A DNA stretch of 31,401 bases. Origin: a virus. Where the stretch lies: positions 1 through 31,401 of IMG/VR virus record IMGVR_UViG_3300025767_000082; one strand, 5' to 3'. The notes beneath the pieces were generated by a model, which saw nothing but the letters and a program-made list of their open reading frames with translations, made no database searches and was not told where the DNA came from. The translations under genes were made by a program, and so were the position numbers. This document shows, in pieces, positions 20,625-31,401 of the stretch (position 1 is its first letter; the number at the start of each line of letters is the position of its first letter).

Positions 20625-22709
20625 ATGAACTGGTTAGAAAACGTAGAGCTATACCTAAGATTAAAACTAACAGGGAATCCCACTCGGGATTCCTTCGGGG
20701 TAACCCTCCTCAAGAAGTATCCCGAATCTATGGATAGGCTCCAAGAGTATGGGCAAATAGCACACCTTGTTATCAGTCGGCAAGCTAAGAATGTAAGCGG
20801 TAATATACATTGTAAACTAACAGTAACAAGTATCGCTATTGGCAAGAGCATCCTCTCCACTCTAACCAAATCTAAAAGAAATGATTGGAAAGATGAGGTG
20901 CGCCTTGGTGACCTCTTCATCGAAGCATTCTACCGGCTAGGTTTTATTGATATTGTTAAACCTGAGTTCAGATCAACACGGCCCGTGGAGATTATACTCT
21001 TGGGTACATTCCCATCAGAACTCCCAGAGCCTGTCGTCAAGATGGCACTGCATGGTGTGTGGAATCAAAAGCCTAAAGATATTAATAGGGCTGAACAAAT
21101 AATCCAGTTCAACATTGATAGTCTCAAGTACACTGTACCTATCGTGAAGCGCTGGGATGAAGTCCTCGATGGACCCTTCAAGGATCTGTTAAAGACTAAA
21201 GCAATCAAGGCCGTTAACAAACTACAACAAGTGGGTTGGACTATCAACAAGGATGTACTAGCAGCTGTCGAGAGCAACCCGTATATGTTCTACAAAGAGC
21301 ACGACAAGTCTAGTGAGAACCTGTCAAAGAAGATTGACTACGCTTACACTGTAACAAAGGCCAAGGTCTTATCCAAAGAGGACAGCTTCTACTACGCACT
21401 GGATGTAGATTACCGTGGTCGTGTTTACTATGTTGAGAGCTACATGAACTTCCAAGGATCGGACCTAGCAAGGGGGCTTCTGTGCTTCTCTGAGGAGGCT
21501 TTAGTTACCCCCAGTGGGTTACGCTGGCTTAAGATACATTGTGCCTCCTCGTACAACGAGAGCTATTCTAAGGACAATATACCAGCGTGGTGTACATCGG
21601 ATTACAGATCACACCTAGATGCTGAAGGATTGGATGATATCTCTGTGGACAAGATGACCTTGAGGGACAGGGAGCTGTGGGTAGACAACAACATACTTGA
21701 AGTTTACAAAACAGCATTAACAAAAACACTACACAGCTGTGAGAAACCAGTGGCATATCTGGCAGCTTGTATAGAACTACTTAAATATAAGGAAGCCAAT
21801 GGTAATTATTACTCTCGTATGCCTGTACCAATTGATGGTAGCAACAATGGATGGCAACACCTAGGGGCGATCTCTAAGGATGTACAAACAGCTGAGCTTG
21901 TTGGTCTTGTTCCAGTCGATATTCAGAATGACTTCTATGTGCAGACAGCAAAGAAGCTAATCGAGATTACAAAGGATGTAACTCGAAGTTCAATACTGCA
22001 AGAGATGCCCATGAAGAAAATCCGAAAGGGTATCAGTAAGCGTGGGAGCATGACAAGAGCTTACTCCGCAGGCGCTCAGAAGATCGCAGAGAATATGTAT
22101 CAGGACTGTAAGGGGTATGGTTACTGTGCCGAGTATGGTATCACTGAAGAGATCTGCAAAGGTCTTGCAAGAGATCTAGTCAAGGCTATTCAGTTAGTCT
22201 GTCCCGGTCCTCTTCAAACCATGAAGTACCTACAACAACTAGCTAATGATAGGTTAGACCAAGGCTATGGTTACATGACATGGACTTCACCCTCAGGGTT
22301 CCCTGTGATCTATACCTGCAACCATCAACGCTCAGAGAAACAACGAGGGACTATTAGTGGCATCGGCCAGATCAACCACGTAGCTAAGGTAGATACCAAC
22401 GTGTCTGACCGTAGGGGTTTTATGTGTGGGATCTCACCTAACTTTATCCACTCACAAGATGCAGCGCACATGAGTTTAGTCATCGATGAATTTGATGGTG
22501 TCTTTGGGGCTGTCCACGATAGCTTCAGTACCCATGCATCGAAAGTCGATGAGCTACTTAAGATAACCAAACGAGTCTTTGTTGAGATATACAATGAAGA
22601 TAACTACTTTGATAACATCCAGAATAGGATTGAAGCAACAGCTGATCAACCAATAACTGGTAGTTTAAACATACAAGATGTGGAGAAGTCAGATTACTTC
22701 TTCGCCTAA
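20625..22709 (+). CDS. Single-subunit phage RNA polymerase, T7-like (intracellular)
   Basis: 694 aa. Motifs in order: DYRGRVYYVESYMNFQG (DxxGR, 262-266), motif A PIDGSNNGWQHLGA (D404), motif B KGISKRGSMTRAYSAG (K472, Y480), FIHSQDAAHMS (about 607-617) and motif C VHDSFSTHA (D632), equivalent to T7 D537, K631, Y639 and D812. T7's G640 is a Ser here (S481). It is about 190 residues shorter than T7 RNA polymerase, mainly N-terminal, where T7 contacts promoter DNA. It lies after primase-helicase, so it is probably made mid-infection and drives late genes. A strong hairpin lies in its 5' coding part. Confidence 0.93.
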   Translation: MNWLENVELYLRLKLTGNPTRDSFGVTLLKKYPESMDRLQEYGQIAHLVISRQAKNVSGNIHCKLTVTSIAIGKSILSTLTKSKRNDWKDEVRLGDLFIEAFYRLGFIDIVKPEFRSTRPVEIILLGTFPSELPEPVVKMALHGVWNQKPKDINRAEQIIQFNIDSLKYTVPIVKRWDEVLDGPFKDLLKTKAIKAVNKLQQVGWTINKDVLAAVESNPYMFYKEHDKSSENLSKKIDYAYTVTKAKVLSKEDSFYYALDVDYRGRVYYVESYMNFQGSDLARGLLCFSEEALVTPSGLRWLKIHCASSYNESYSKDNIPAWCTSDYRSHLDAEGLDDISVDKMTLRDRELWVDNNILEVYKTALTKTLHSCEKPVAYLAACIELLKYKEANGNYYSRMPVPIDGSNNGWQHLGAISKDVQTAELVGLVPVDIQNDFYVQTAKKLIEITKDVTRSSILQEMPMKKIRKGISKRGSMTRAYSAGAQKIAENMYQDCKGYGYCAEYGITEEICKGLARDLVKAIQLVCPGPLQTMKYLQQLANDRLDQGYGYMTWTSPSGFPVIYTCNHQRSEKQRGTISGIGQINHVAKVDTNVSDRRGFMCGISPNFIHSQDAAHMSLVIDEFDGVFGAVHDSFSTHASKVDELLKITKRVFVEIYNEDNYFDNIQNRIEATADQPITGSLNIQDVEKSDYFFA
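20674..20693 (+). other. Hairpin within the start of the RNA polymerase gene
   Basis: GGAATCCC (20674-20681) pairs perfectly with GGGATTCC (20686-20693) around ACTC, about 50 bases into the coding region. Could slow translation or be a cleavage site; it encodes ordinary text, so chance cannot be excluded. Confidence 0.4.
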
Positions 22710-23710: not shown

Positions 23711-26700
23711 TTAATGCATGTAATACTGAAACACAGACTTACCAGCGGCGTTAATATCTGACCGCAATGCTTTCTTATTATGGTTTACTTTATTACGAAG
23801 TTGAGTCAGTCTCTGATTGAGAGCCATCTCTTTGTTGAGCAACTTATGGAAGTGCCTCACCTGCTTAACAGTAGCCTGTGTCGGGTTAGTGCTAAACTTA
23901 TAACCAACATCACGCATACCCTTTTGGATGTTAGCCAGTGATTGATCCACGTTCAACACATCAACATTCTCAAGGTGTCTCTTCAAAGCTACAGGGGTTG
24001 CATCACCATACGCATCCACCTCAAGGCCAGTCAAAGATCCCATCATCTGGTGGACCTCGTTCAGACCAACATTAACTACAGAGTCTGGTGAGAGTCCCTT
24101 CAGTGTTTCTTCAAATGCTAACTCGGCTCTCTTGTTAGTATCTATAATCTCCTGCATGAAGTCCCAGTCCATGGTGGCGTTCACCCAGTTCTCATTAACA
24201 TCGTTCAACACAATATCATAACCATTAGCATCCATCTTAAAGGCATCGTAGATCTGGTAAAGATACGGATCACCACGGGAAGCATCATTAAGCCTACGCC
24301 AAGTGTTACCAGTAAATGTCAAAGCAGCAGTTGCTGCATCGATAGACTGTACCGAAGCTACAACAGAACGGTTCATTGTCTTAACACCAACCATGGGCTT
24401 GCCATTAACCAACTCAGCAGCTGCCGCAGATCGTCTAAGGGAACCATACCTTTCGATAGAACGCTGAGACCTCTCTCCCTTAGTGAACTCTGTCCACTTA
24501 ACCTCACCGACCTTACCACTTACAGAACCCCCAAGAGAGATCTCCATGCCAGTAGCAGTTGTCATTGTGAATGGTATATCTGCAAGAGCTGCATTAGCTG
24601 CCACACCTTTCAAGATTGATCTTGTTTGGATTGCCTCGTTAGACAGGACCTCGTGCAGACCAGTCGTGTACGTTGGTAATAGCAGCGCTGACAGTGATTT
24701 ATTATCTGTCACTGACTGCAATGCAGCAAACGCTTCCTGATAACCAACAAGGTTGTTACTCTCAAGTTCCTCTTGGGACATAAGGGCAGCTTCTTCGTTG
24801 ACACGGAACATAGCGTCTGAGATATCACTAACAAAAGATTTAATATCACGGCCATAACCAAAGGTCATTGTCGTGTATTTGTTGAGTGCTCTGTTGTTGA
24901 AGACCGCTCTAGCTACTGTGTAAACGTGAGGTGCAGCATCCCCCAAGAGGGACTCACTGCCGGCAATGCCGTCCACATCTATCACATCAGCTAAGGTCTC
25001 GGCGAGCTGATCCCTGATGTCACCCTTATCTAGGAGGACTTTATCCTGACTCCTCAACACACCAGTCATAAAGGCCATTGCCTTAGACCCCATGAGCATA
25101 CCCCATGCAGCCAAACCGTTAGTCTTACCATCGATGTATGCGTTAAAGAAGGAACTATGCCCAGCTGGGTTGTTGTCAACGATCACAGCTTTGTGGAACT
25201 TAACAAAGTCTAAGAGACCATCTATGTACAGAGGACCATCCTCACCCGCCTTGGCAATAGCTGCAATCAACGCACCGTCAATCTCTGGATCTAAAGCTAG
25301 TCCAGAAAACTTCGGGAAGTTTGGATCTAACAAGGACACACCGTCCTCGATGGCTTGGTATATCTCATCCGCTTTCTCAGGAGAGATCGCCTCGTCAAGT
25401 AATGCTTGTAGCCGTTTACCCCAAGAGAGAAGCTGGGGTGTTGCCCTGAGGAGCATTGCAGGTCTCTCTGAGGGTAATGCTTCTGACCCACCATCAACTA
25501 AGTGTAGTGCATACATCTGCTCCAAGTTACGATGGACCCGGTTACCACGTTTAGCAACAGCCGGTTGAGCACCTCTTGTAACAAAACGAACAAGCTTCGA
25601 GGAACTGGGATCAAACAAAGATTGCTGTGGTGCAGTACGTCCGTTAAAGCCCTGCATGTAATACGTCAAGTAGTTAATACCCTTGCGTTCTTTTGCGATA
25701 CCAAACAGGTGCTGAGCTGTTGATGTTTTGATTGATTCAAGAACAACGTTAGCACTGTACTCCGTCTGCTCTGGGTTCTCAGCGAGGGCTGCTTTCTCTT
25801 GAGCAATAAGGGCGGACATCTTTTTAGGACCAATGTTGTGCATGTTAGCAAACAAATCAACGACAGGCTGGCCACTACCGGGCTGACTAAGGAGTGCTGG
25901 CAGCAAGGTCGCTAGTGCAACCCGGCTTCTAGTACGGTCAACAATGTGGCCTACCGTGCTTTGGTTACGCATCGCTTGGTCAATCAGCCTAGTGTTTACA
26001 CGTTTCACTGGAGAACGTACAAGGGTTTTGAACTCACCAACTAGCTTACCATTAACTGGTTTAGTTTTAAGCGGGGATACTAGATTCTTACCGAAAGCCT
26101 TCTTCCGTAAAGCATCTGCTTGCTTAAAAACAATAGCACCTTCTGGGGTTAGCTGGTATACCTTTGGCTTCTTAGCATCACCGGCACTAACCACATCCTC
26201 GCTTTCACGGATAAGATCTGGGTTAACCTTGACATAGTTTGAGAGCATGGCAGCACCAAGTGCTGTCGCCTGCTCAGAGGTCAGATCAGCAGAGACCGTG
26301 GCATTGTTGTTGCGTTGGTACTCACGGCTTATCGCTTGCCCCACACGCTCAGCTACCTTAGCAGCAGGTACTTGAGTCACGAGGGCCATCTCTGGTTCTG
26401 TGACTGGTTCACCAGCAGCCTTGAGAACTACATCCTGAGTCTCAGGGATTCCCTGTAGGTAATCAGAAAGCGTGTTCTCAATGGTAGCCGAAGCTACAGT
26501 TAAGAAGGTAGGTGATAGTTTCTTATCTACCTTGCTTGGATCTAAAACACTCTGAGTTGTTTCAATAGCACTCCAAGGACCTACTTCATTAGTCCCTGTC
26601 AGAAGGTCAAGGGCAGCCACAAGTGGTCTTGCCTGCACATCAGGTGATCCTGCAAGAACCCGTGGATCTTGGTACAGACCAACACCAACTGCCCCTGAGT

Positions 26701-27097
26701 CAAAGGCATCACGTAGCGCCCTCGCTCTAACGAACAGACCGTTATTGCCTTCTGTTGCAGATCTCTTAGAGTCTGCTTTGTACTTGTAAATGTTTGAGGG
26801 ACCTCCCGGCGCAGCTAAGTTTTCCCTAATACCGGGAAGCGCTTCTGCTTCTTGCTGAGCTTTTATTGCCGCCGCTCTCTCAGCTTCTGCGGCGATACCT
26901 TCAAGCACCCCCGCTTCAACAAGAGGCTCTGTCCCTACGGTAGGCGCTGTGGCAACTGAGGGTTGCTGTACAGGCGCTTCTGCTTCTTGTATTGGGGTTA
27001 CCTCAGGGGTAACACCAAGTGTCTCTACGGGTGTTTCAAAGCCCTCAGAGGGCACCGGCATACCGGGCCTCCCCTGAGCTGTAATTATCTTACCCAT
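23711..27097 (-). CDS. Putative virion RNA polymerase (single-subunit, N4 vRNAP-like in concept)
   Basis: 1128 aa. Residues about 20-95 are Ala/Pro/Glu/Val-rich and probably disordered. From about 475 the single-subunit RNA polymerase landmarks appear in order: FNGRTAPQQSLFDPSSSKL (R487; T7 R425 context), motif A FFNAYIDGKTNGLAAWG (D656), motif B RALNKYTTMTFGYG (R736, K740, Y748, G749; T7 R627, K631, Y639, G640 with identical internal spacing), SVQSIDAATAALTF (D920; T7 HSQD box), and motif C YQIYDAFKMD (D951; T7 D812). It is encoded with late giant proteins, not with replication genes, so I infer it is packaged and ejected to transcribe first genes. The C-terminus is basic and helical. AAGGAG precedes the ATG and overlaps the end of the gene before it. 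Overall similarity is low; function needs biochemical proof. Confidence 0.75.
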   Translation of the reverse strand: MGKIITAQGRPGMPVPSEGFETPVETLGVTPEVTPIQEAEAPVQQPSVATAPTVGTEPLVEAGVLEGIAAEAERAAAIKAQQEAEALPGIRENLAAPGGPSNIYKYKADSKRSATEGNNGLFVRARALRDAFDSGAVGVGLYQDPRVLAGSPDVQARPLVAALDLLTGTNEVGPWSAIETTQSVLDPSKVDKKLSPTFLTVASATIENTLSDYLQGIPETQDVVLKAAGEPVTEPEMALVTQVPAAKVAERVGQAISREYQRNNNATVSADLTSEQATALGAAMLSNYVKVNPDLIRESEDVVSAGDAKKPKVYQLTPEGAIVFKQADALRKKAFGKNLVSPLKTKPVNGKLVGEFKTLVRSPVKRVNTRLIDQAMRNQSTVGHIVDRTRSRVALATLLPALLSQPGSGQPVVDLFANMHNIGPKKMSALIAQEKAALAENPEQTEYSANVVLESIKTSTAQHLFGIAKERKGINYLTYYMQGFNGRTAPQQSLFDPSSSKLVRFVTRGAQPAVAKRGNRVHRNLEQMYALHLVDGGSEALPSERPAMLLRATPQLLSWGKRLQALLDEAISPEKADEIYQAIEDGVSLLDPNFPKFSGLALDPEIDGALIAAIAKAGEDGPLYIDGLLDFVKFHKAVIVDNNPAGHSSFFNAYIDGKTNGLAAWGMLMGSKAMAFMTGVLRSQDKVLLDKGDIRDQLAETLADVIDVDGIAGSESLLGDAAPHVYTVARAVFNNRALNKYTTMTFGYGRDIKSFVSDISDAMFRVNEEAALMSQEELESNNLVGYQEAFAALQSVTDNKSLSALLLPTYTTGLHEVLSNEAIQTRSILKGVAANAALADIPFTMTTATGMEISLGGSVSGKVGEVKWTEFTKGERSQRSIERYGSLRRSAAAAELVNGKPMVGVKTMNRSVVASVQSIDAATAALTFTGNTWRRLNDASRGDPYLYQIYDAFKMDANGYDIVLNDVNENWVNATMDWDFMQEIIDTNKRAELAFEETLKGLSPDSVVNVGLNEVHQMMGSLTGLEVDAYGDATPVALKRHLENVDVLNVDQSLANIQKGMRDVGYKFSTNPTQATVKQVRHFHKLLNKEMALNQRLTQLRNKVNHNKKALRSDINAAGKSVFQYYMH

Positions 27098-27099
27098 GT

Positions 27100-30000
27100 T
27101 TACTCCTTATTATATCCCCATTCATCAGCTGGTTGAGTTATATTCTCAACAAGTGTATCACGTAGCTTTGGTAGGCTACCGAGAGGTGTTAGTTTAGCAG
27201 CAGCCTTAGCTGCCTTGGTGTAGTCACCCTCGATGAGGGAACCTGTTGCTGTCATAAGTTTATCTAAAGTACCAAGAGCTGGTGCTTCCCCAGATGTTTT
27301 ATTCCAAGCCCAGTCAGCATAACCCTGAGATCGAGACTCATACATTGGTGCTATAAAATCAATAACACGCTGGCCAGTACCGAGAAGACCAGATGAAGAC
27401 ACAGCCCTCCGGGCTTTCTCCATATCGTCAAGGTATGGGTTTTCTGTACCCCACTTCATCCTATCCTTTAATTCCTGAGAGGCATACCCCATAGCAATCA
27501 TGAGGACCATCATAGAAAATGCATGGTATTTCATTTGAGGACTACCACGTTTGACATACTCTCCCCAAAGCTTAGGGATAAATGTAGATTGGAAAACAGC
27601 AATAAAGCCTGAGAACTGAGTGAACATTGCAAACCGAGGATCATGATAGATCATAGGTCGGTTAGCAGTTGTTGGCATCATGATGGCATCATTGATAAAT
27701 GCAAAGGTACCATTAGTTATTTCATTTCTCAGCTGCTCTGCCTCTACTTCTGTCAAGGGATAGTTAAACGCTTGTTTCTTAGCTAGCTCTGTAAACAACT
27801 CAACATTAATGTGCAGGTTGCGTAAGTGCTCCTCAGCTTCCTCAACAGCTTTAGTCTTGGGAGTGCTGCTATCCCACAGGTAGATTGTCTCTGCGTGGTT
27901 CAGCATATAGTCCCAAGCAATAGATGCACGGACTGCCCTTGTCATTTGGGTCCAACCTTGCAAACCGTTCCACTTAAAGAACTGAGAGATTAGGTTTTGT
28001 TTCAATGCATTGGTTTCAGTCACACCTGTTTTAGATGCAGCTCCAGCTTCTTGCTCGTTGTAACCAAGCTCTTGGATAATACGCTGACCGTTAGTTTCAG
28101 TTTTGGCTAGCTCTACCCTAGTGATTGTGGAGAATATCTCCTTACCACCATTATAGAACATAGTCCCAAGTTCAACACCGGCTGCCTTCAAACCACCCTT
28201 ACCGAATATCTGTTGGTTAGTTAATCCTTTAAACAAAAGCATAAGCTCTACGGTAGAACTAACAGTTGCTGTACTCAAGGCTCCAAGAATCGTAAAGGTT
28301 AAGAAGTTCTTTTGGATCTTCTGTGCCAACTTACCAGCGTCTGTGGTTGCCCTCTTGTAGTTACCTGACTCAGCATCAAGGTAATCCTTCATCTTCTTAG
28401 CGATCCTAATAAGATCAGCTTCAGATACGCCCTCCGCCCTTGCCTTCTCTAGCTGTGCTGCGATAACACTACCGTTAATACCTACATACTTTTGATATGC
28501 AACAAAACGTGCAGCAGACTTAATAGCGTAGTTGACATTTGTGAAGATGTCCTGCTCTAAGAACTTATCAAATGCAGGATTCTCAGAGAGCCCCAAGGTC
28601 CTTGCCCTATGTGAGCCGGGTATTGGGGTACCGTCTGTTACCGAGAATGCCTTATCATCAGGTAATAAACCATCGATGTCATTCTTGTTAGGGTTCTCAA
28701 TAATGTTAGTTGCAATATCATTAGCCATTGCTTCAGTCATCCCGTGGGACTCACCATACTCTGACATTAAGGCGGTTATAAAACCAGCCCTGTCACCGGC
28801 AACAGCGTTCTTGTTAAGTGATTTAAACTTAGAGAAGTAGTTACTAATCTCACCAACATCACCATACTTTTGTTGTTCCTTCAACATACTATCAGACAAT
28901 CGTTGTAGTCTTTCAATCTCCTTAATATAGAGTTCCCTGTTGGGCATCTCTGGTATCTTAGATGTATCGAGAACACCCTTGTCGTTAACAGCGTCCCGCC
29001 AGATATTGTAGAACTGACGGCTTAAGAGTTCCCTTTTCTTACGGCTAGGTCTGATACCCCCATTAATGGTTGAATAAAACTCTGTTGGTTTTGTGTAGGC
29101 GTTCTCCCACTTTGCAACTAACAAGTGTTTAAAAGATTCAAAATCATTACCACTGTATGTTGTTTGAAGACCACCACCAAACGATGCAGCTAACTTACGA
29201 ATAGATGGAGAGATATTTTTCAACCGATCTAAGAATATGAAACGAGTAGATCCACGCCAGAAGCGAGTGCTTGAGACAGCCACATCAAACACGGTGTCCG
29301 CCTTTGTACGTTCGCCTTTAGGCTCTTCTTTCTCAGCAAGCTCATTAAAGATATTCTTATCAGGAGATACAGCAGCTGCCCTTCGAGCTTCCTCTAGGTT
29401 CTCATCTATTGTAGGTATGAACCCATTGTTAGTTCTCCTTTCTTCTTCGGCCCACTTACCAGAGTCGGACAAACCACTACCGTCTGCTTCAGTACCTCCC
29501 CAAATAGCTGCCTCCCACTGGGCTTGGTTGGTCACACCACTGGCTGTCCCTAAAGAACCACCAAGGGCAGCACCAGCCACAGCAGCTTGGGTCATACGGT
29601 TTAACGCCTCATTAAAGTCAAATGAAGAATCCTCAATGTGAGCCGCAGTATAACCAATCAGTTCCTGAACCGCTTCAGTAGCGCCCTCAGTTACAGTACC
29701 AGCAGCACCACTCTTTAAGATATCTTTAATGGCATCACGACTTCTTAGTTGATCTTTAAGAATACGTGAAGCGTCTGTGGAGATACCTGCAAGCTGTGAC
29801 TTAGACATTTGAATAACATCTTTCAGTGCAGCCTGAGTCATTCCTTCAGTGACTTCAATCCCAAGCTCTTTAGCTTTCTTAATTGCTAATTGCTCAGCAG
29901 CAGCGTTAAGCATTTTCTGTGGGGTATCAAGCTTACCAAAACCACCAATAAGTTTAGTAACACCAAACAAATCTAAAGCACCTTGGATTGCACCACCACC

Positions 30001-31059
30001 AACAGCAAGTGCCCAGTTCTTAGCATTATCTGCTTGTTCGTTCCAGATAGACCCAGCATACACGCTTGCAGGAACCAGTAAAGAAAGACCACCTGTATAC
30101 GGGGCTGCTACCAAGGAAGCTGTTGACATAGCCATGTACGGTAATGACATACCTGCGTTATTACTTACAAACTCCCAAGCATCTCCAGCGCTATCTACAT
30201 CCTGATAGTCCAAAAGAACTTGAGCACGGTTAGCCATCTCGGTACCTTTGCGGTAGACTCCGTTTTCACCAAACTCCTTAACAGAATCAAGACCTAAAGT
30301 GTCTCCAAGCATTTCAGCAACACCGTATGAAGCCTCAGCAAAACCAACCATCGCAGCCCCTACGGAACTAGAGAAAGGATTGTACGCTTGGTTCTTTAAG
30401 TTCCTATCCTTGTGCCGGAACATAACTGTATCCGTTAAGTACTTGCTTGGGTTAGCAGCGTACTGTTGTTCGTTGAGTGCTAGTTCTTTAAACTTAGTTG
30501 CATCGTAACCCTCAGCTTCTCGTGCTGCATTAACTTGAGCGGCTAGCTCATCAAACAAAACTTGATCTTCACCTCTAGGAACAGTGTCCCCCATCCACTT
30601 AGATACTGCAATAGCTGTAAGGTCTTCCTTCGTCACCCCCTCGACAGGTTCAAACACACCAGACGTCAGTAGCTTTGTGATGAAGTCTTCACCTTTGTGA
30701 TTGACAAGACGTCCTGTCCTGCGCCCAAATGCTGCATCAATACCAGTATCTTTAATTTCTGTATAGCCATGCTTAGTTGCAAAATCCTTAACAGCCCCTA
30801 AGGCTGCTAAACCTCCTGCGGTTCCAGTTTTCTCTACCCATTCTCCAGATCTATCTTGTACCCACTTAGCTACCTCAGGTGCATCAAACCCTTGAAGACG
30901 TACATTGGGGCCCCCATCGGAGGCCACAACAGTATCTGCATCTAACCAATCGGAAACCACTAAGGGTTCCTCGATTGGCGCTTTTTTAATAGAGAGGTCT
31001 TGGCTAGCTTGTACTTGTTGGGCTTCTTGAAGAATCCCTTGTAATACATTATCAACCAT
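27100..31059 (-). CDS. Giant ejection protein with N-terminal staphylococcal-nuclease domain
   Basis: 1319 aa. Residues about 33-140 form an SNase-like domain: LDADTV (D40, D42), VRLQGFDAPE (R54, D59, E62) and FGRRTGRLV (R113), matching the nuclease residues D21, R35, D40, E43 and R87. Several hydrophobic helices follow (about 303-337, 349-372, and later GAALGGSLGTASGV, FTILGALSTATVSST and AFSMMVLMIAMGYAS). This size, layout and position fit T7 gp16-type internal virion proteins that form an envelope-crossing channel, but T7 gp16 begins with a lytic transglycosylase whereas this starts with a nuclease-like domain. GAGG precedes the start by 8 bases; the stop overlaps the next gene's ribosome site. 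Confidence 0.75.
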   Translation of the reverse strand: MVDNVLQGILQEAQQVQASQDLSIKKAPIEEPLVVSDWLDADTVVASDGGPNVRLQGFDAPEVAKWVQDRSGEWVEKTGTAGGLAALGAVKDFATKHGYTEIKDTGIDAAFGRRTGRLVNHKGEDFITKLLTSGVFEPVEGVTKEDLTAIAVSKWMGDTVPRGEDQVLFDELAAQVNAAREAEGYDATKFKELALNEQQYAANPSKYLTDTVMFRHKDRNLKNQAYNPFSSSVGAAMVGFAEASYGVAEMLGDTLGLDSVKEFGENGVYRKGTEMANRAQVLLDYQDVDSAGDAWEFVSNNAGMSLPYMAMSTASLVAAPYTGGLSLLVPASVYAGSIWNEQADNAKNWALAVGGGAIQGALDLFGVTKLIGGFGKLDTPQKMLNAAAEQLAIKKAKELGIEVTEGMTQAALKDVIQMSKSQLAGISTDASRILKDQLRSRDAIKDILKSGAAGTVTEGATEAVQELIGYTAAHIEDSSFDFNEALNRMTQAAVAGAALGGSLGTASGVTNQAQWEAAIWGGTEADGSGLSDSGKWAEEERRTNNGFIPTIDENLEEARRAAAVSPDKNIFNELAEKEEPKGERTKADTVFDVAVSSTRFWRGSTRFIFLDRLKNISPSIRKLAASFGGGLQTTYSGNDFESFKHLLVAKWENAYTKPTEFYSTINGGIRPSRKKRELLSRQFYNIWRDAVNDKGVLDTSKIPEMPNRELYIKEIERLQRLSDSMLKEQQKYGDVGEISNYFSKFKSLNKNAVAGDRAGFITALMSEYGESHGMTEAMANDIATNIIENPNKNDIDGLLPDDKAFSVTDGTPIPGSHRARTLGLSENPAFDKFLEQDIFTNVNYAIKSAARFVAYQKYVGINGSVIAAQLEKARAEGVSEADLIRIAKKMKDYLDAESGNYKRATTDAGKLAQKIQKNFLTFTILGALSTATVSSTVELMLLFKGLTNQQIFGKGGLKAAGVELGTMFYNGGKEIFSTITRVELAKTETNGQRIIQELGYNEQEAGAASKTGVTETNALKQNLISQFFKWNGLQGWTQMTRAVRASIAWDYMLNHAETIYLWDSSTPKTKAVEEAEEHLRNLHINVELFTELAKKQAFNYPLTEVEAEQLRNEITNGTFAFINDAIMMPTTANRPMIYHDPRFAMFTQFSGFIAVFQSTFIPKLWGEYVKRGSPQMKYHAFSMMVLMIAMGYASQELKDRMKWGTENPYLDDMEKARRAVSSSGLLGTGQRVIDFIAPMYESRSQGYADWAWNKTSGEAPALGTLDKLMTATGSLIEGDYTKAAKAAAKLTPLGSLPKLRDTLVENITQPADEWGYNKE

Positions 31060-31070
31060 GTTGTTGTCCT

Positions 31071-31401
31071 CTATGTTTGTTTATTCAATCTATCAATTGA
31101 CCAAGTTAAGAATGCGTTAGATCCCTCTATGGCTTTACCTTCCCAGTTTGCTCTTTCAGCATCACTTAAGCTTTTCCAAATTATAGCAAGGTTGTTTAAA
31201 ACGACCTGTTGGTCTACTCCACGCCTTGCTCCCTTTTGGCTCAATGTATTATACAAAGTGCTTACTTGTTCGGGGTTTGGGTTTCCAGCATACAAAGTGT
31301 CCTTTAACTGAGGAGAAATGTCTTGAGCTACAAGATCCCGAAGAACCATCTTAATTACTTGAGGATCTTCCAGATTAACATCAGGACTTCTTGCCCTGAG
31401 C
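31071..31401 (-). CDS. C-terminal part of a late protein cut by the right edge
   Basis: The frame is open from the right edge (31401) to the stop at 31071-31073. An ATG at 31349 lacks a ribosome site and the upstream residues RARSPDVNLEDPQVIK read as natural protein, so the true start is probably outside the window. About 109 residues are seen: soluble, helical, with VSTLYNTLSQKGARRG and NNLAIIWKSLSDAERANWEG. Lies 11 bases before the giant ejection protein; probably another virion protein. No family recognised. Confidence 0.6.
   Translation of the reverse strand, partial: LRARSPDVNLEDPQVIKMVLRDLVAQDISPQLKDTLYAGNPNPEQVSTLYNTLSQKGARRGVDQQVVLNNLAIIWKSLSDAERANWEGKAIEGSNAFLTWSIDRLNKQT

Follow-up and report, generated by a model that had tools for sequence, protein, structure and literature searches.

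A staphylococcal nuclease-like domain at the N-terminus of a giant putative ejection protein in CRP-7-type podoviruses

The stretch of DNA analysed here (the window) is a podovirus-type phage genome fragment of 31,401 bases, and a viral contig of 55,423 bases (G001) is 99.9-100% identical to it over the parts compared. The closest isolate is Roseobacter phage CRP-7, with a terminase identity of 61% and the same gene order around the locus; the relatives of the window phage are CRP-7-type podoviruses. CRP-7 is a marine podovirus with a host of the RCA lineage and represents a "CRP-7-type" group of its own (PMC6918029). Three large adjacent genes lie on the minus strand at one end of the window. 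The first is cut by the window edge and contributes only its 3' end (31071..31400). The second, an open reading frame at 27100..31059, encodes a protein of 1319 aa, putatively an ejection (internal virion) protein, that begins with a staphylococcal-nuclease (SNase) domain, and the third encodes a 1128-aa single-subunit RNA polymerase, a putative virion RNA polymerase (23711..27097). A second, T7-like early RNA polymerase is encoded on the plus strand at 20625-22709 (phrog_414, E 1e-105); the two single-subunit polymerases are distinct and their genes convergent, and the layout in CRP-7 is alike. Elsewhere in CRP-7 (MK613349, 35552-38170), the annotation splits the ribonucleotide reductase into two pieces, gp44 and gp46, that flank gp45, possibly owing to an intron, intein or homing insertion.

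The SNase domain comprises residues 31-157 of the 1319-aa protein (30589..30969, minus strand), the range of its AlphaFold2 (AF2) model that aligns to residues 10-136 of 1SNC. The preliminary description of the locus, made from the sequence, had likened about the first 140 residues to the SNase core and had named the span 30640-30963, which is equivalent to residues 33-140. No single family sequence matched the Pfam SNase family (PF00565), a search with PF00565 over six phage records was also negative, and a phmmer search of PDB sequences that used only the window sequence returned no nuclease. Likewise, tblastn with the SNase domain alone gave zero matches in 50,697 phage records. Because the single-sequence searches showed no nuclease, a family of relatives was gathered, comprising CRP-7 gp34, its close kin and, through iterated alignment search, 16 viral contigs beyond G001. 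A profile built from six sequences ranked SNase at the top with a non-significant E of 0.36. When the profile held 17 family sequences, the best match among 177,635 PDB sequences was staphylococcal nuclease with an E of 4.7e-5, and the catalytic residues were aligned. A profile-profile comparison by hhalign between the family and the free-standing phage SNase R4C gp30 yielded a P of 1.6e-8, with D-x-D-T, R-L-x-G-x-D-A-P-E and G-R all in register. R4C gp30 has been listed as matching a thermonuclease family protein (PMC11981692). A full-length alignment of the 1319-aa protein found no relative in 84,980 prokaryote genomes, and therefore there is no sign of prophages or of a host origin.

The predicted structure leads to the same family. 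The template-free AF2 model of the domain has a pLDDT of 73, with values of about 70-90 over most of residues 31-157. Its secondary structure (E33-40, E43-46, E53-55, H81-96, E101-107, E114-119, H126-133 and H144-159) presents the elements of an SNase-type OB fold, i.e., strands, helix 1, strands and helices 2-3, in the proper order, and an extra β-hairpin formed by residues 64-78 is predicted ahead of helix 1. SNase structures were the top matches of the model in Foldseek (E 7.7e-5), and VIA-align superposed it on 1SNC with a Z of 10.0 and an rmsd of 4.1 over 116 residues. Given the pLDDT of 73 and an rmsd of about 4 Å to SNase, the confidence to be placed in the model is only moderate. Taken together, the family profile, hhalign, the AF2 fold and the residue conservation described below bear out the proposed resemblance to the SNase core, and the N-terminal domain almost certainly belongs to the SNase family.

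The preliminary description had further named five residues, D42, R54, D59, E62 and R113, as a retained catalytic set. All five are present in the window protein at these positions (..LDADTVV..VRLQGFDAPE..AAFGRRTGRLV..). With the register taken from the alignment to solved SNases, they are equivalent to SNase D21, R35, D40, E43 and R87, respectively, and window D40 and T43 are equivalent to SNase D19 and T22. We take the roles of these residues to be those assigned in SNase, namely D21 and D40 as Ca2+ ligands, R35 as a phosphate contact and E43 as the general base. The SNase catalytic site needs Ca2+. Conservation was assessed over 108 positions in 18 homologous N-terminal domains, which form 11 clusters at 70% identity. 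Both Asp residues of the D40-A-D42 element (30934..30942, minus strand) are invariant in the 18 sequences. In the element R54-LQGF-D59-AP-E62 (30874..30900, minus strand), R54 and E62 are invariant, whereas D59 is Asp in 16 of 18 and Asn in the other two; R113 (30721..30723, minus strand) is invariant in 18/18. The catalytic set thus holds in the relatives for D42, R54, E62 and R113, while the claim does not extend to D59 in every lineage. The replacement D59N, at the position of a Ca2+ ligand, was noted among the N-terminal domains of L116, L118 and L125 and occurs in L116 and L118, and the two lineages with Asn offer a natural test of the need for full activity.

Only eight of the 108 positions are invariant (D40, D42, T43, R54, E62, G98, R113 and G123), and four of the five positions named in advance are among them (hypergeometric P of 6e-5 for four or more). 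A chance or convergent resemblance to SNase could account for the empty Pfam and single-sequence searches. We consider it extremely improbable and reject it on the basis of these pre-named positions falling in invariant columns; moreover, the profile, profile-profile, fold and conservation tests are independent and concordant. Within the domain, dN/dS was 0.05-0.44 in eight pairs, which are rough values given that certain pairs approach saturation or cover little sequence. As judged from the sequences, the domain is under purifying selection.

Conservation also bears on whether the domain still cuts. Alternatively, it may be an OB-fold module without catalytic activity whose role is to bind DNA, for instance to tether an end of the genome within the head or conduit. 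OB folds do bind nucleic acid, the Asn at D59 in two lineages would be tolerated by such a module, and the paradox of self-digestion taken up below would vanish. On the other hand, the equivalents of D19, D21, R35, E43 and R87 are invariant in all 18 sequences even though identity to the window domain drops to 22-39%, and mere binding would need neither the general base E43 nor the Ca2+ ligands. An idle module is thus unlikely. From its sequence, the domain is most likely a catalytically competent OB fold with a predicted Ca2+-dependent Asp/Arg/Glu phosphodiesterase centre, and there is good reason to expect an active nuclease.

In 21 of 21 records searched, the domain was found as a single copy, and that copy invariably opens the giant reading frame. 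In every relative with N-terminal sequence, the domain opens one uninterrupted reading frame, the exception being the frameshifted L119. In the contig that carries it (G043, one of the 21 records), the frame is broken after the SNase domain, between the domain and the remainder of the giant protein, at about 7900-8800 of L119. Since the L119 domain sequence equals that of L117/L124, the break may be an assembly error.

Beyond the SNase domain, the protein has relatives among virion structural proteins. Residues 845-1206 (27442..28527, minus strand) match phrog_6958, "virion structural protein", with an E of 5.7e-28, and the match is also present in 12 of 14 relatives. tblastn matches to this C-terminal region came from Roseobacter phage CRP-7, from Pseudomonas phages tf, NV1 and UFV-P2 and from Vibrio phage KIT05, those to particle proteins of LUZ24-like and Vibrio podoviruses being weak. 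The homologues tf_51 and KIT05_21 are annotated as particle proteins. In LUZ24, nine virion proteins were identified by ESI-MS/MS, seven of which have tf homologues (PMC3517423). A full-length profile of the 1319-aa protein gave only chance matches to PDB sequences and retrieved no solved ejection protein, including those of T7. An SNase domain was not found in tf_51 or KIT05_21, the homologues from LUZ24-like and Vibrio podoviruses; because these proteins are without it, the nuclease appears to have been gained in the CRP-7 group or lost outside it. The proposed fusion of a nuclease domain to a giant virion-type protein is therefore upheld by the C-terminal homology to phrog_6958 and by the presence of the fusion in every relative found. 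Packaging and ejection we infer from homology, gene order and the parallel with T7 and N4, and on these grounds the 1319-aa protein is most likely an ejected virion protein.

These observations also speak to the timing of nuclease action. A nuclease acting late instead of at entry, either in breaking down host DNA before packaging or in degrading released DNA after lysis, would suit the late-gene strand and the position of the gene, and once the cell has lysed, the Ca2+ of seawater would switch it on. Such a role is improbable, as a free late enzyme would have no need of the fusion to a virion-type protein that is seen in every relative, and as cytosolic Ca2+ is far below what SNase needs. The sequence also shows neither a signal peptide nor any other sign of export, which counts against late action. 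Transmembrane segments were not detected, no 19-residue window exceeding a KD value of 1.6.

The downstream gene had been described as a putative virion polymerase directly beside the nuclease protein, and both its motifs and its fold agree with an RNA polymerase of the T7/N4 vRNAP type. The 1128-aa protein matches phrog_414 with an E of 3e-7. In an alignment of 11 relatives, motif A (D656 in D-G-K-T), motif B (K740, Y748 and G749) and motif C (D951) are invariant; motifs A and B are found in every relative with sequence for the downstream gene, and the corresponding motifs are present in CRP-7 gp33 and its kin. A full-length profile gave only chance matches to PDB sequences, the fold being recognised via structure prediction. 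The AF2 model matched T7 RNA polymerase in Foldseek (E 6e-14) and superposed on N4 mini-vRNAP with a Z of 16.0 and an rmsd of 5.0 over 589 residues. Wherever a relative has sequence for this region, the polymerase gene adjoins the nuclease gene. Judging from the late strand and its position in the cassette only, the polymerase is probably packaged in the virion.

The gene preceding the nuclease gene is complete in G001 (99.9% identical; L104:8418-10736, minus strand). In most relatives examined, the start of this gene carries a peptidoglycan-hydrolase domain whose type varies by lineage: SLT (E 1.3e-13), Phage_lysozyme2 (3.5e-21) or Phage_lysozyme (about 3e-32, in two lineages), with a Pesticin domain (E 3.6e-6) opening the gene in CRP-7 and its kin. 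The hydrolase-bearing genes are L124:4191-7934, L123:4213-7917, L126:4191-7916, L115:4681-7908, L007:4872-8450 and CRP-7 gp35 (L005:1163-4834). No wall-hydrolase domain was detected in this gene either in the lineage of the window phage or in the CRP-7 relative L010. A motif near the start of the preceding protein, GTDTVPAWLTPGEFVMNAEATRM, is kept across lineages (L104:8418-10736 and homologues). The hydrolase type swaps between lineages, or none is found, whereas no relative examined is without the nuclease. The T7 protein gp16 carries a transglycosylase at its N-terminus, and the preliminary description had set the 1319-aa protein beside it. The comparison stands insofar as an enzymatic domain occupies this end of the protein; it fails as a one-for-one swap with the wall-degrading domain of gp16, as most relatives examined have the hydrolase in the preceding gene. 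For the same reason we rejected, as a general rule, the idea that SNase replaces a wall hydrolase. Because a wall hydrolase starts the preceding gene in most relatives examined, the nuclease is better regarded as an added activity.

The nuclease might act on the phage's own nucleic acid at entry, nicking or trimming the leading end or clearing an intermediate to let the DNA or polymerase proceed. Its gene adjoins that of the polymerase in all relatives with sequence, which would put both products near the leading DNA end, and the domain is maintained while the wall-hydrolase types change. Yet SNase enzymes show low sequence specificity, which would make self-trimming hazardous; the analysis revealed no particular site or end structure, and the LUZ24-like relatives do without a nuclease. 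Overall, we regard this self-directed role as rather unlikely. The reading we prefer is one in which the three adjacent genes would constitute an ejection cassette made up of a wall opener, a nuclease-bearing channel protein and a virion polymerase. The wall-hydrolase protein would open the host envelope. The 1319-aa protein would help to build or line a conduit and deliver its nuclease to the envelope or cytoplasm of the host, after which the single-subunit RNA polymerase would enter and start early transcription. In N4, the ejected channel and the polymerase are the products of three neighbouring genes (PMC12633501).

How could a virion carry such an enzyme beside its own genome? In an engineered T4 with SNase fused to an internal protein, external Ca2+ activates the nuclease, the phage DNA is fragmented and infectivity is lost within minutes (PMC9026906; PMC3012670). 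Because SNase packaged in T4 destroys the phage DNA when Ca2+ is supplied, a marine virion must hold a natural SNase inactive until ejection, unless the domain is catalytically dead, and the conserved active site argues against a dead domain. GFP packaged in the T4 head can be non-fluorescent there yet fluoresce once it has been ejected (PMC9026906), and fusions to foreign proteins are believed to unfold as they are injected (PMC8402733). The nuclease of the window phage may be silent in the capsid, either unfolded or inactive, and be turned on after ejection through refolding and available Ca2+. It would then attack host nucleic acid at entry, so that the host is disarmed and nucleotides are supplied. 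Host nucleic acid as the main target is a serious candidate to which we would give slightly less than even confidence. Extracellular DNA is an unlikely target if the protein stays internal until ejection. The ejection-cassette explanation as a whole, including the joining of a bona fide SNase to a giant internal protein of the virion, is likely. The fullest version, in which a virion-packaged, Ca2+-gated SNase stays latent in Ca2+-rich seawater, is ejected with the polymerase and destroys host nucleic acid in the first moments of infection, is offered tentatively. If true, it would provide a handle on how an enzyme that cuts DNA generally can be kept in a virion beside the phage genome, and on how a polymerase-carrying phage attacks host nucleic acid before phage gene expression; both questions are testable because the isolate CRP-7 exists.

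Compared with staphylococcal nuclease or thermonuclease (PF00565; 1SNC), the window domain shares the OB-fold topology and the catalytic and Ca2+-ligand residues in register, with about 20% identity over 116 residues. It differs in being the N-terminal part of a phage protein of 1.3-1.5 kaa, neither secreted nor free-standing, and its family has the extra hairpin 64-78, usually Ala instead of Thr at position 41, and a divergence too great for Pfam. CRP-7 gp34 (QBQ72827.1) is the syntenic homologue; it shares the SNase domain and catalytic residues and adjoins the polymerase gene gp33, but it is only about 20% identical to the window protein over its full length and is annotated as "hypothetical protein". 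The word "nuclease" does not occur in the 2019 CRP-7 paper (PMC6918029). Another giant phage protein, A0A6J5NQ80 in UniProt (1342 aa, uncultured Caudovirales phage), is a structural match named "Staphylococcal nuclease (SNase-like), OB-fold", a label that comes from automatic annotation only.

With T7 gp14, gp15 and gp16, the window locus would have in common a giant internal protein, an N-terminal enzymatic domain and a late three-gene cassette. The difference from gp16 is that the N-terminus of the window protein is an SNase and that wall hydrolases reside in the neighbouring gene of other lineages. The N4 gp50-51-52 cassette likewise includes a single-subunit RNA polymerase (PMC12633501), although N4 gp50 is 3.5 kaa whereas the CRP-7-type polymerase is 1.1-1.3 kaa, and the window phage has its second, T7-like early polymerase in addition; "nuclease" has no occurrence in that N4 paper. 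Among the enzymatic domains known to be carried by ejection proteins are those of wall hydrolases, an RNA polymerase, an ADP-ribosyltransferase and anti-restriction proteins (PMC8402733 and, in part, general knowledge). Literature searches gave no pertinent account of an ejection protein with an SNase or other nuclease domain, and no description of a natural SNase-type virion nuclease was found. Each half of the combination of a nuclease with a giant virion protein is known, and the combination itself appears to be undescribed in searchable papers. The only packaged SNase that we met is the engineered T4 IPIII-staphylococcal nuclease (PMC9026906, PMC3012670), in which SNase is also fused to an internal protein and packaged, as we propose for the window protein; whereas the T4 fusion is man-made, the arrangement in the window is natural and occurs in marine-type phages.
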